From Rhizophlyctis rosea (taxonomy: Eukaryota > Chytridiomycota > Chytridiomycetes > Rhizophlyctidales > Rhizophlyctidaceae): 64,000 nucleotides of DNA. Below the pieces are notes generated by a model, which saw only the letters and a program-made list of their open reading frames with translations, had not been told where the DNA came from and ran no database searches. Positions 7,496 to 64,000 of the stretch are shown here, piece after piece (positions within the stretch are counted from its first letter, which is position 1; each line of letters opens with the position of its first letter). The stretch lies in contig JADGJC010000002.1 of assembly GCA_027596075.1 (NCBI GenBank), forward strand, positions 310,001 to 374,000, given 5' to 3'. The position numbers and the translations under genes were made by a program.

Positions 7496-8287
7496 ATGGA
7501 CGACGACATCGACGCTCTGCTTGAAGAAGTCGAGTCAGGTTTGCCTTCTAAGATTGCTCCCACATCCCAAAAAACTTCCAAAGCGGCTCCACCCGCTGCG
7601 CTCAGATCGCAGAATAACAGTGGGAAAGAGGTCAGCCCATATGATACTTTGCATGCTTACCTCATGCATGTAGGATTGATCTTAAGTAGTCCATCCATTC
7701 TGCAGGTAACATCTCTGGATGACCTCTTGGCGGAAATCGATGTGCATCACGATGAGGGGGATTTGAAGAATGGACGGAAGTCTGCCGATTCCCTATCCAT
7801 CGGTGGACAACGTAGTACCGCTAGTCCAGCACCAGAAGGACCAAATAGTTCAAAAATCAAATCGAAGTGAGTCACCAATGGGAGGAGTACATTGTACTCG
7901 TTAACCCATTAATATCCCCATCAGATGCAGTTCCCATTCACTAAATCCCTCCAACCTCGGTGCATCAAACACCCTCCCATGCTCCAACATCCGTTGCGTG
8001 AGCTGCGATTTCCGCTGCGAAGTCTTTGACGACATGGCATGGAGCTCACAAGTGGATCATCTGTTTTTGCGAAATAACATGCCAGATAGAGATAAACTAA
8101 AAGCGATGCTGCTCAAGTCCAGAGGTAACAGTGCATATGCGACCGCATTATCTCTTTTGGCGGAGATTGATCTTTTTGACTAGGGTCCAAGGCAATATGC
8201 TGTCAATGCTCATGGCGGACTATCCCCGATTCGAGCGAAGGTCCTTCGTCAGGAGGGAAGTTGAAGTGGGTTTGTGGCGGACATTAA
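7496..8287 (+). CDS. CFAP418: CFAP418 (C8orf37) ciliary/flagellar protein
   Basis: Matches animal CFAP418, a small protein of the ciliary base and photoreceptors. The N-terminus is the family's acidic MDDDIDALLEEVES. Exons 7925-8124 and 8184-8287 carry the C-terminal domain: CVSCDF, FLRNNMPD, then CQCSWRT and the final KWVCGGH. The junction 8124/8184 is required to restore CQCSW; reading through the intron gives a false end. The first coding block is 7496-7866, with an internal 75-nt segment (7631-7705) that is in frame both ways and has a weak GTCAGC donor, so the protein is 199 or 224 residues (human 207). The presence of this gene suggests flagellated zoospores. Confidence 0.92.
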
Positions 8288-59603: not shown

Positions 59604-60893
59604 ATGACGTCAAATAGGAAGAAAAACTCTGCCATTCACCTTTTCGCGGGCGGCGCGGCGGGTTTTTGCGAAGCGCTCACATGTCATCCGCTGGATACAA
59701 TCAAAGTGCGGTTGCAGCTGAGAGGGGAGAGGATGGGCGCGAAGAAGCAGCCAGTGTTGTCCGTCGCGGGCCATGTTCAAAACGGCATTGCAGCAGAGGT
59801 GGCAAAGGTATGGTGTTCCTATGCCGCATGGAGTGTTTGGGAACGGCCCCATCTGAATACTCATTCGAACGCATTCTTAGCCAAAGCGGCAAACCTTCAT
59901 CAACGTCGGAGTACAAATCGTTCAGAAGGAAGGGTTCTTGTCCTTGTACAAGGGTCTCGGTGCGGTCGTGTCGGGAATCGTACCCAAAATGGCAATTCGG
60001 TTTTCGTCGTTCGAGTGGTTCAAGGAACAGCTAGCAGATAAGCAAACAGGGAAGGTTAGCGCAATGGGAAATTTCATTGGTAGGTAGCAATTCATCGAGC
60101 ACTTACAGCGTCGCGTGCGAGCTCTCAATTTATCAAATTTGTTTATAGCTGGGTTGGCGGCGGGAACAACGGAGGCCGTCACGGTTGTCACACCTATGGA
60201 CGTGATCAAGATTCGTCTGCAAGCACAGCGGCATTCCATGTCAGATCCCCTTGACATCCCGAAATATCGAAACGCTGCACATTGCGCGTATCTTATGGTT
60301 CGGGAGGAGGGACTTGGCTCGCTGTACAAGGGTGTTGCATTGACGGCCATTCGGCAAGGTATGTGACACGACCAATTATTTAGCAGTATATTTCAATGCA
60401 CTTCCAAGGCTGATACCATCCGTATAACACCACAGCAACGAATCAGGCCGCCAACTTTACAGTCTATCAATACCTGAAGCAGAAAATGCACGAACTTCAG
60501 CCTGACCGCGCCGGCTCCCTCCCCGCATACCAACACATGGCCATGGGTTTCATTTCCGGAGCCTGCGGCCCGCTGTTCAATGCGCCCATCGACACCATCA
60601 AGACGCGCATTCAGAAGAACCCGTCCTCTGAGAAGGGATACAAGCGCTTTGTGAATGTGACGAAGGGCATCATTCAAAACGAGGGCTTCACTGCTTTCTA
60701 CAAGGGTTTGACACCTCGTGTGCTGAGAGTCGCGCCTGGACAGGCGATCACGTTCATGGTGAGTGCATGCTGCTGAAGGAGTTTCATTGCGCTGGGTGTC
60801 TAATTGTTTGCATGATGACAGGTTTACGAGCGTGTTTATAAATGGATGGTTGCTGTTAGCGAGAGCATTGCCATTGAAGACCATGCGCGCTGA
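59604..60893 (+). CDS. SFC1: Mitochondrial succinate-fumarate carrier (Sfc1/Acr1)
   Basis: Inner-membrane antiporter that brings cytosolic succinate into mitochondria in exchange for fumarate, needed for growth on acetate or ethanol. Three carrier repeats are visible, each with a Px[DE]xx[KR] motif: HPLDTIKVRLQ, TPMDVIKIRLQAQ and APIDTIKTRIQ. Segments that mark Sfc1 rather than other carriers include GFLSLYKGLGAVVSGIVPKMAIRFSS-like (across the intron near 59,900-60,000), RQATNQAANFTVY, and GLTPRVLRVAPGQAITFMVYE. Five exons or so, with introns near 59,810-59,885, 60,082-60,150, 60,360-60,435 and 60,759-60,820. TGA is at 60891-60893. Confidence 0.93.
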
Positions 60894-61496
60894 TTTTTGC
60901 TAACAATGTCGTAGCCTATGACGATGAATTGTGTCAAGTTCTTAACTTTGATGTATTGTATCCGACACTATCATATTGTAATTTATATAGTCATCTATGC
61001 CGTCTCAAGAGGGAAGACTGTCATTCGCTGCTTGGCGGGAACTGTGCCGAATTGATTGTTAGAGAAGTAGCAAAGGGAGGCGGCCGTGCTCGAAAAAGCC
61101 CAATATCCTGCCAAGTCCGCACTATTGTTGGCTGGGAAATGGAAGGAGGTGATTACCGCACATCATACATTCAATCGAGGAAGACAACCGCGTCGATGCC
61201 CAAAGATCCTGCCGATGTATTGAATTTTGCAATGTTTGGGGTGTTGCAAGAGGACCCCTGAGAGGACCCTGACCCGCTGGAAGCTGCCAAGTTGCCAACC
61301 TGCTGCGGCGAAGTTGGATGAGACAGATTATGTCATATGACTGTGCCACCGGATGGTTGATGTGGTCAAAGCTTACTGAGGAAGGGGTTTCTGCAATAAA
61401 AGGTTGATCCCCCAGTCCTTTCGTCTCTTCCTCCCGTCTCACAAAGCATTCATCAGCAGCCGAAACGCATATTCCACCAATGCAGGCTCGCTAAGT
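60894..61496. other. Intergenic, 600 bp
   Basis: Between SFC1 and the H15/SP-RING gene, both plus strand. The plus-strand frame near 61,404 is open but has no ATG before 61497. Nothing else recognised. Confidence 0.5.
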
Positions 61497-64000
61497 ATGC
61501 AGACATTCTACATCCTCGGTGTCGTCCCTCCCAGCGGCGACTCGCCACCCTCGGGGTCTTCTGCTCCAGCAGCAGAAGCCTCCAACACCGAGTCTGCAAG
61601 TCTGCCGACAGGAACAACAATCAAAACAGAACCAAAACTTTCGGTCGGAGCTGTCCTCAAAAAAATCCAAGCAGCAAAGAAGGCAAAGAAGATCAAAAAG
61701 ATCAAAGTGAAACCACCACAGCTCCCGAACAACAATCATCCTGCCTATGGGAAAATGGTGACAGCTGCGATACTTGCGATGGTAAGAGGTGCAATGCGTG
61801 CGCACTTGGAGTTTGAGAACGCTCATTCCCTCGCCTAACAACAATTTTGCCTCGCGCGTTCACAATTTACAAAAGGGTAAGAATGGATCCTCTCATGACG
61901 CTATCGTGGGGTATATCCGGGCAAATTGGAACGTGAAGTCCGACACAGACCGTCGTACGCGAGTTGCCAATGCTATCAAAGCCGGAGTCCGGAACGGTAT
62001 CTATGTTCGAAGCAGGCGCAGAATTAAACTGGCACCGGCTGCTGCAGAGCATCTTGCTGCTCCTACGAGAAGAGCCGCTGCAGCGCGTGGTGCAACCTCA
62101 ATGAGCCGCGGTATCAAAGTGGAACGGACTACTGCTGACCATGCCACCGCACAATTGGACCACGGTATAAAACCGGAACCGGCTACTGCTGAACATCCTG
62201 CTGGACAACCGACACAACGCGGACCACCCACTACCCCAAAACGAGAGAAGAATGACAAATCGATGAAGACTGACTTGGCTTTCGTGGCTCCCCGTTCCTT
62301 CCGTGGACTATATCTGCCGGGATACGCACACATGGCCGGACTCATTGAGGGGAATGCGGACACGCGTGATTTGGTCTGGCGAGAGGAGAATCAGCAACCA
62401 ATCCCCTACGCGCCACATGCGAACTTCAATCAAGAACAATGCATCCGAGCATATCAGTGAGTCATGCTGATATTTGATAACAACCTCTGTGCCATCAATT
62501 GATCATAAATTATCTATGCCGCCACTAGAGCCTTGAAGTTGATCTTCCAATTCTTTGGTCGCATACACCCGCCCGTCCGTCCCTACTGGGCTCCTCCCGG
62601 CCCAGAAAAGTTGCAAGTCAGTCCACTTCGCGCACTTCACCTCCCCAGATACGGGCATGTGGCCGAGTTCGTTGAGGCAGATCCCGATACAATGGATGTG
62701 ATGTGGAAAGAGCAGAATGGCGTTGCTGTTCCGCATCTTGAGCAGATGAAGCCGCTGGAGAAGAGAAAGCGTGCGAATCAGTACGTTGAACATTTCCATG
62801 CTATACTGGGTTTTATACTGATCGATTCTCCGTGTGGCTGCTCCTATTTCAGCGTCCTAAAGGACATCTTAGCCGTTTGTGACCTACCCTATCGTCAAGA
62901 GTGGTTTCCTGTACTGGAAAATGGTCAGGGCTTGGAAACTTCGGCAAACAAGATGACAGATCATCAGGTGGAGATCAGGAGAGAAGTGAACGAACAGAAT
63001 CGGGAAGGGCGGGGCAAAGGAAGTCAGGAACCGAACCACAACGGCAACGGGAAGGGAAATCCAAAAGCGAAGAGCAAAAAGACGCAGGTTCAGGACGGGA
63101 GGGGGGACGAGCGGGAGCACATGAACTTCTACCCGCTGTGCGCACTCCAACTGGGGAAATACAAAGATGTTGCCCCGATCATCGAAAGTCATGCCGACAC
63201 ATGCACGCTACTTTGGCGGCGTACGAATTTGAAACCCTATGAAGCCGTGCCACACTTCCTGTGTGAAGATGCTACTGAGGAGCAGGAAGTCCGAGCCAAC
63301 CAGTAAGGACCAACTTTCTGCACGTTGAGCTATGATACAATGCACATCTGTTCCTATTTACTGATGATTTGGGCTAGTGCGATCGAGGTGGCATTCAGAA
63401 GTTGCAATCTCAATCTCAAGGCTGAAAACCGAGTTCGTTCGTTCCCGAAGAATCGTGGGTTGCAAGAACGGTGGTTCCCGTTGGTGGTGCAGCAACGGGA
63501 TGAGGAAGTACGACTTGCCGAAGCTCACAGAGCCAAAAGAACTGCAGTCAAGTCGAAAACGGATCGTATTGTGTTCTTTGACATTGACACTTCCATGGTA
63601 AGGTACTCGTGTAATGTAGAGTGCGTTGTCGCCTTTAATGACGCACAATGTCTTTCAGGAGGAGCATCGTGCGCAGAATTCAAAGTACGCCTGCGATCCT
63701 GATCCAAAATGGAAGAGGGACACGCATGAATTGGAGAGCCAAAGCAGCAAGCGTGCCCGCATCGATGTTGAGCAATCTGACATTGATGAAGTTGTGAATC
63801 ATCTGATCTGGTCCACCATCGCCGGCGAAGGAGACGACATCGAGGATGACGGTATCCACGTTGGGCCGCAGCGGGTCAGTCTCCGGGACCCGCTGTCAAT
63901 GCTGCGCATCCGCACGCCTGTGAAGGGGAGGGGATGTCGTCATCTCGGCTGCTTTGACCTCGATACGTACGTCCGTTTGAACGAAAGTCTTCCGAAATTC
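61497..64000 (+). CDS. Linker-histone (H15) / triple-module / SP-RING protein, partial
   Basis: Probable chromatin-bound SUMO E3 ligase, cut by the window end. Exons 61497-61781, 61876-62456, 62529-62780, 62853-63302, 63378-63597 and 63659-64000 fit in phase: 710 residues seen. Residues about 80-150 form an H15 linker-histone globular domain (HPAYGKMVTAAILAM, GSSHDAIVGYIRANW, TRVANAIKAGVRNGIYV). Three copies of an unrecognised ~80-residue module span 235-318, 319-401 and 463-563. From residue 669, VSLRDPLSMLRIRTPVKGRG then CRHLGCFDLDTYVRLN match the first half of the PIAS/Siz SP-RING, with the Cys-x-His zinc ligands. Three psi-K-x-E SUMO-acceptor sites (residues 42, 175, 193) and a SUMO-interacting-type IVFFDID (587-593) fit. 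The remaining SP-RING cysteines lie beyond the edge. Confidence 0.85.
62293..62616 (+). repeat. Module copy 1 in the H15/SP-RING gene
   Basis: Coding repeat with core LYLPGYAHMAGLIEGNADTR, a tryptophan-basic-Glu-Asn turn, then AYQ|ALKLIF across a phase-2 intron and PYWAPP at the end. Aligns with the copies at 62617-62937 and 63121-63498. Confidence 0.75.
62617..62937 (+). repeat. Module copy 2 in the H15/SP-RING gene
   Basis: Coding repeat with core LHLPRYGHVAEFVEADPDTM, then ANH|VLKDIL across a phase-2 intron and QEWFPV at the end. Confidence 0.75.
63121..63498 (+). repeat. Module copy 3 in the H15/SP-RING gene
   Basis: Coding repeat with core LQLGKYKDVAPIIESHADTC, then ANH|AIEVAF across a phase-2 intron and QERWFPL at the end. 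This copy is longer, with an inserted loop before the closing tryptophan. Confidence 0.75.

Follow-up and report, generated by a model that had tools for sequence, protein, structure and literature searches.

A Rhizophlyctis rosea gene that encodes a linker-histone globular domain together with an SP-RING

Gene structure and the H15 domain

The 64,000-nucleotide stretch of Rhizophlyctis rosea DNA analysed here (the window) ends within a forward-strand gene that encodes a linker-histone globular (H15) domain, three internal repeats, and an SP-RING. Because the gene runs past the window end, it was completed with contig sequence from the same assembly (C112:370501-380500, whose first 3500 bases equal window positions 60501-64000). 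The finished gene comprises seven exons joined in phase, separated by six GT-AG introns of 61-106 nt, with its stop at 64304 in running coordinates that continue past the window end. Its spliced product of 775 residues matches a database protein (P0001) at 100% identity over 100% of its length. An upstream open reading frame of four codons (ATGCAGGCTCGCTAA) occupies window positions 61481-61495 and stops just before the start codon at 61497. The features of the gene are as follows.

61497..61781, + strand: exon 1, residues 1-95; begins at the first in-frame ATG; covers the acidic, serine-containing start, a basic stretch and the beginning of H15; donor GTAAGA
61620..61631, + strand: IKTE motif around K43, from a motif search of the protein
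61737..62037, interrupted by the intron at 61782-61875, + strand: H15 globular domain, residues 81-149, from PF00538 and PDB histone H5/H1.0 chains
61782-61875, + strand: intron 1, 94 nt, phase 0, interrupting H15
61876..62456, + strand: exon 2, a single open frame with most of H15, the linker and the first half of repeat 1
62016..62208, + strand: 49-nt unit in three copies starting at 62016, 62106 and 62160, 61% and 76% identical to the reference copy
62296..62610, + strand: repeat 1, about residues 236-316, split by the phase-2 intron 62457-62528
62529..62780, + strand: exon 3 of the spliced model
62617..62931, + strand: repeat 2, about residues 319-399, split by the phase-2 intron 62781-62852
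62853..63302, + strand: exon 4 of the spliced model
63127..63501, + strand: repeat 3, about residues 465-564, split by the phase-2 intron 63303-63377
63378..63597, + strand: exon 5 of the spliced model, 88% identical to a truncated copy on C601
63659..64042 (window part 63659..64000), + strand: exon 6, acidic linker and SP-RING
63875..64021 (window part 63875..64000), + strand: SP-RING, residues 669-717, from PF02891; C112:373875-374021 in the genome scan
64149-64304 in running coordinates (outside the window), + strand: exon 7, the last exon

A first-pass annotation of the window had proposed a six-exon, in-phase model joining H15 to the SP-RING. The single in-phase model stands, with the exon count corrected to seven and the last exon placed outside the window. 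Its central claim, that one gene encodes both domains, was borne out once the contig was extended and the gene finished: Pfam places PF00538 (Linker_histone) at residues 81-140 (2.9e-9, 37.5 bits against a cut-off of 22.4) and PF02891 (zf-MIZ) at residues 669-717 (1.9e-15, 56.8 bits against 33.5), and both places also exceed the cut-off in a six-frame scan of the genome.

When the H15 piece alone was searched against the PDB, all 13 matches at E<=1 were to H5 or H1.0 (best 1.1e-4), one of them in a fusion with ADAR. The genome scan found two PF00538 places, both above cut-off, namely the fusion gene and an ordinary H1 of 207 residues with a lysine-rich tail (C484). The two H15 domains are 35% identical and are interrupted at the same aligned place by a phase 0 intron, which follows AAILAM in the fusion (intron 1) and NAIATL in the H1. 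Since both the place and the phase of this intron are common to the two genes, the module was likely derived from an H1 gene.

At the DNA-contact positions of GH5, which we take to be 40, 42, 52, 69, 73, 85 and 94, the fusion H15 has a basic residue in four of seven cases (42, 73, 85 and 94) compared with six of seven in the H1 of this genome, and the alignment with that H1 reveals that the wing loop is missing from the fusion. Both the lost loop and the fewer basic contacts favour a reading in which the domain binds DNA like a winged helix of general or sequence-selective kind rather than as a dyad-bound linker histone, and brings a SUMO E3 to particular genes, for which WH1 of MORF/MOZ on unmethylated CpG offers a precedent in a passage of PMC9908889. 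We consider this somewhat unlikely, given H5/H1.0 chains as the only PDB matches and the intron place of an H1, although these speak to the origin of the domain and are not proof of H1-like binding. Placement at the nucleosome dyad is plausible by analogy with WH2 of MORF, which according to a passage of the same paper (PMC9908889) binds the nucleosome dyad and is superimposed on H5. We infer that the H15 could be seated on the dyad or compete with H1, as had first been suggested.

Central repeats and related SP-RING loci

Between H15 and the SP-RING lie three repeats, 81-100 residues long, of a domain unknown to Pfam; an NCBIfam search also returned no match. When aligned, the second and third repeats are 34% and 30% identical to the first, with 16 invariant columns, and a phase-2 intron cuts each of the three at the same place. 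A further copy (E 6.1e-4) was detected on C124 (G000:C124:61105-61260 and downstream, L065), where a local profile reached 1e-7 in a search over selected loci only and where the genome scan found no SP-RING match. By eye, this copy too is interrupted at the corresponding point by an intron in phase 2, a position shared by three genes. The third of these is C179 (G000:C179:205881-202817, - strand, L015), the closest of the SP-RING paralogues whose frame is open, modelled from a start methionine of our choice, in which two repeats with the same phase-2 introns are followed by an SP-RING. Pfam found neither PF00538 nor a named N-terminal family in C179. Four RanBP2-like finger motifs of the pattern W-x-C-x4-C-x3-N-x6-C-x2-C were recognised there by eye only, and neither Pfam nor the genome scan called RanBP2 fingers.

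These introns bear on whether gene prediction has mis-joined two adjacent genes, one for an H15 protein and one for an SP-RING protein. Exon 2 left unspliced would indeed meet a stop at 62460, but the same exon is common to H15 and repeat 1, in three genes the introns interrupt the repeats at one common place, and the order of repeat then SP-RING is seen again in C179. The 61-106 nt between exons are also too short to leave room for a promoter. With H15 and repeat 1 in one exon and no intron above 106 bases, two genes are very unlikely, and we give this reading hardly any weight. Chance domain matches were likewise considered, and were rejected because the scores lie well above cut-off.

SP-RINGs occur at twelve places in the genome scan, each of them above cut-off, and Pfam was run on open reading frames at seven of the eleven other loci (all but C14:53k, C521, C10 and C601). 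One (C288) carries SAP, PINIT and SP-RING, the standard Siz/PIAS set, with Asp at the position of the PIAS Cys, while another (C136) encodes a PF00641 finger and an SP-RING in one open frame. At C112:11k a CCCH-like finger that falls under the Pfam cut-off (18.4 against 20.5 bits) lies near the SP-RING, a joint gene being putative. An N-terminal Pfam family was found at none of C179, C485, C334 and C14:102k, and PINIT was detected in the genome scan only at C288 and C250. The H15 has the look of a targeting module that can be exchanged. In a weak SP-RING tree, with two of twelve inner branches well supported, the Asp-type SP-RINGs do not form one clade (two changes are needed; 0% of 200 bootstrap trees get by with one), and the tree carries no weight in the readings given here. 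PF11976 has 39 matches in this genome, ubiquitin included, and eight partial matches to this ubiquitin/SUMO family lie within 2.6 kb (G000:C442:243096-245693) in a possible cluster or split gene.

The SP-RING, coding constraint and SUMO-consensus motifs

The first-pass annotation had named loss of the SP-RING on completion of the C-terminus as the outcome that would count against it. The domain was found complete, and the alignment to PIAS2 (residues 661-752, E 1.6e-10) continues beyond the SP-RING into the C-terminal stretch. PIAS2, PIAS3, SIZ1 and SIZ2 are the PDB matches of this part of the protein, and zf-Nse over the same domain falls slightly under its Pfam cut-off (26.4 against 27). The protein terminates in EFIILDDD, of which FIILDDD is hydrophobic-acidic and SIM-like, a candidate by pattern that we take to fit the SIM consensus; two other SP-RING loci, on C14, end by eye in VVVVDD and VVVVVDE. 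Together, the SP-RING, the PIAS-like C-terminal stretch and the SIM-like motif fit the proposed function as a SUMO E3.

PDB alignments place Asp673 at the position of the Cys in the PIAS 'CPL' motif, as might be expected if the fused gene were expressed and its SP-RING were no SUMO E3 but a pseudo-ligase or scaffold. This is improbable in our view: the zinc-ligand pattern is retained (C-x-H at 689/691, C-x2-C at 712/715), the SIM-like C-terminal end is present, and Asp occupies the same position in the SAP-PINIT SP-RING of C288 and in the SIZ1 of entry 5jne, in the latter presumably as an engineered change.

A truncated copy of the gene, spanning the last part of exon 4 through the first part of intron 6, lies at G000:C601:121231-121960 (- strand, L018). 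It is frameshifted by 2 bases immediately ahead of the SP-RING and is a pseudogene fragment. Identity between gene and fragment is 181/205 (88%) in exon 5 and 328/377 (87%) in exon 6, and 41/57 (72%) in intron 4 and 42/59 (71%) in intron 5, with 22/195, 14/193 and 37/194 mismatches at codon positions 1, 2 and 3. This comparison fits the predicted exon borders and constraint at the protein level. Among the short aligned ends (exon 4, 10/11; intron 6, 24/27), intron 6 points the opposite way, over few bases.

The H15 is flanked by three SUMO-acceptor-like motifs, IKTE (K43), IKVE (K176) and IKPE (K194). The last two are encoded by copies 2 and 3 of a 49-nt unit that derives from the last H15 strand; the units are absent from TRF output. 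Three [VI]KxE motifs within residues 1-235 were reached in 0 of 10000 shuffles, a count in which IKVE and IKPE are not independent because both sit in copies of the unit, and three over the whole protein were reached in 77 of 10000. The C124 product has four such motifs in 355 residues (0/10000 shuffles) and that of C179 has one, which is within chance expectation (25% of shuffles). AlphaFold run on the single sequence gave a mean pLDDT of 35.1, with 0 residues above 70.

Relation to known systems and a possible chromatin-held SUMO ligase

Siz/PIAS proteins (PIAS1-4, yeast Siz1/Siz2, plant SIZ1) have in common with the fusion the SP-RING, the C-terminal stretch that follows it and, as a candidate only, a SIM-like C-terminal motif. 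The fusion differs in carrying H15 and three unnamed repeats in place of SAP and PINIT, neither of which (PF02037, PF14324) Pfam found in it at E<=1, and a separate SAP/PINIT/SP-RING locus (C288) exists in the genome. Plant SIZ1, which retains SAP and PINIT, is likewise an SP-RING E3 with a chromatin-reading module, in its case a PHD finger, but what it reads is a histone tail. That finger recognises H3K4me3 according to PMC6954211.

Linker histones H1/H5 share the H15 domain, with the intron place and phase noted above for the C484 H1. In contrast to them, the fusion has repeats and an SP-RING attached, a missing wing loop and no lysine-rich C-terminal tail: residues 151-235 contain 14 K/R alongside 9 D/E and continue into repeat 1. 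H15 is described as rarely combined with other domains, and as selective in four of five organisms, in a passage of PMC2993927. MOZ/MORF (KAT6A/B) are also chromatin enzymes with an N-terminal winged helix, but they are acetyltransferases with two winged helices in tandem and without an SP-RING. Tetrahymena Miz1 is a MIZ/SP-RING protein, a Chd3 partner, tied to chromatin and likely sumoylated, in passages of PMC6562869 that mention no H15 for it. During meiosis in yeast, SUMO targets include H1 and the core histones, as a passage of PMC7924959 states.

Among the candidates scored in homologue searches with the whole protein (capped at 8000), the repeats (1073) and the SP-RING part (113), the fusion protein itself was the only one returned. 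PIAS, too, went unreturned by the SP-RING part, so these searches say little about eukaryotes. Scans of viral and prokaryote contigs gave no relative, and no H15/SP-RING fusion turned up among the open-licence full-text papers looked at. That literature does not contradict the earlier suggestion of an undescribed architecture, which is compatibility rather than demonstration. Proteins like the fusion would escape a published survey that, according to a passage of PMC4327156, admitted zf-MIZ proteins only if they had PINIT and/or SAP. New in the present analysis are the three central repeats of a domain unknown to Pfam, the duplicated SUMO-motif units and exon 7.

We favour, with moderate confidence, the reading that the gene product is one protein, probably a nuclear, Siz/PIAS-type SUMO E3 held on chromatin via its H15. 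The proposed mechanism builds on the domains in one gene, the constraint and the shared introns, all observed, and we infer the binding, activity, substrates and self-modification. The H15 winged helix, taken from the organism's own H1, would tether the enzyme to linker or nucleosomal DNA, and the repeats would bind partners or substrates. The SP-RING would recruit the E2 charged with SUMO, and the candidate SIM at the C-terminus would hold SUMO, leading to modification of nearby chromatin proteins. Self-modification at IKTE, IKVE and IKPE beside the H15 may loosen or regulate DNA binding. The H15 would be one of several N-terminal targeting modules on related SP-RINGs of this genome.

More tentatively, and as a possibility that we hold with low confidence, the fusion may belong to a lineage-specific class of SUMO E3s that share a chassis (the new repeat domain, SP-RING and SIM) and exchange the N-terminal module. 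Here that module would be the globular domain of the organism's own H1, giving SUMOylation on nucleosomal linker DNA, and auto-SUMO sites arising from duplicated H15 codons would act as a release switch. If a chromatin-held ligase is the right reading, SP-RINGs would have diversified via module exchange, and a SUMO E3 would be tied directly to the nucleosome via a domain of H1 type. No such way of targeting SP-RING proteins turned up in the open-licence papers looked at. The fusion would then offer a clean natural experiment on whether a linker-histone fold suffices to steer SUMOylation towards H1, core histones or linker-bound factors.
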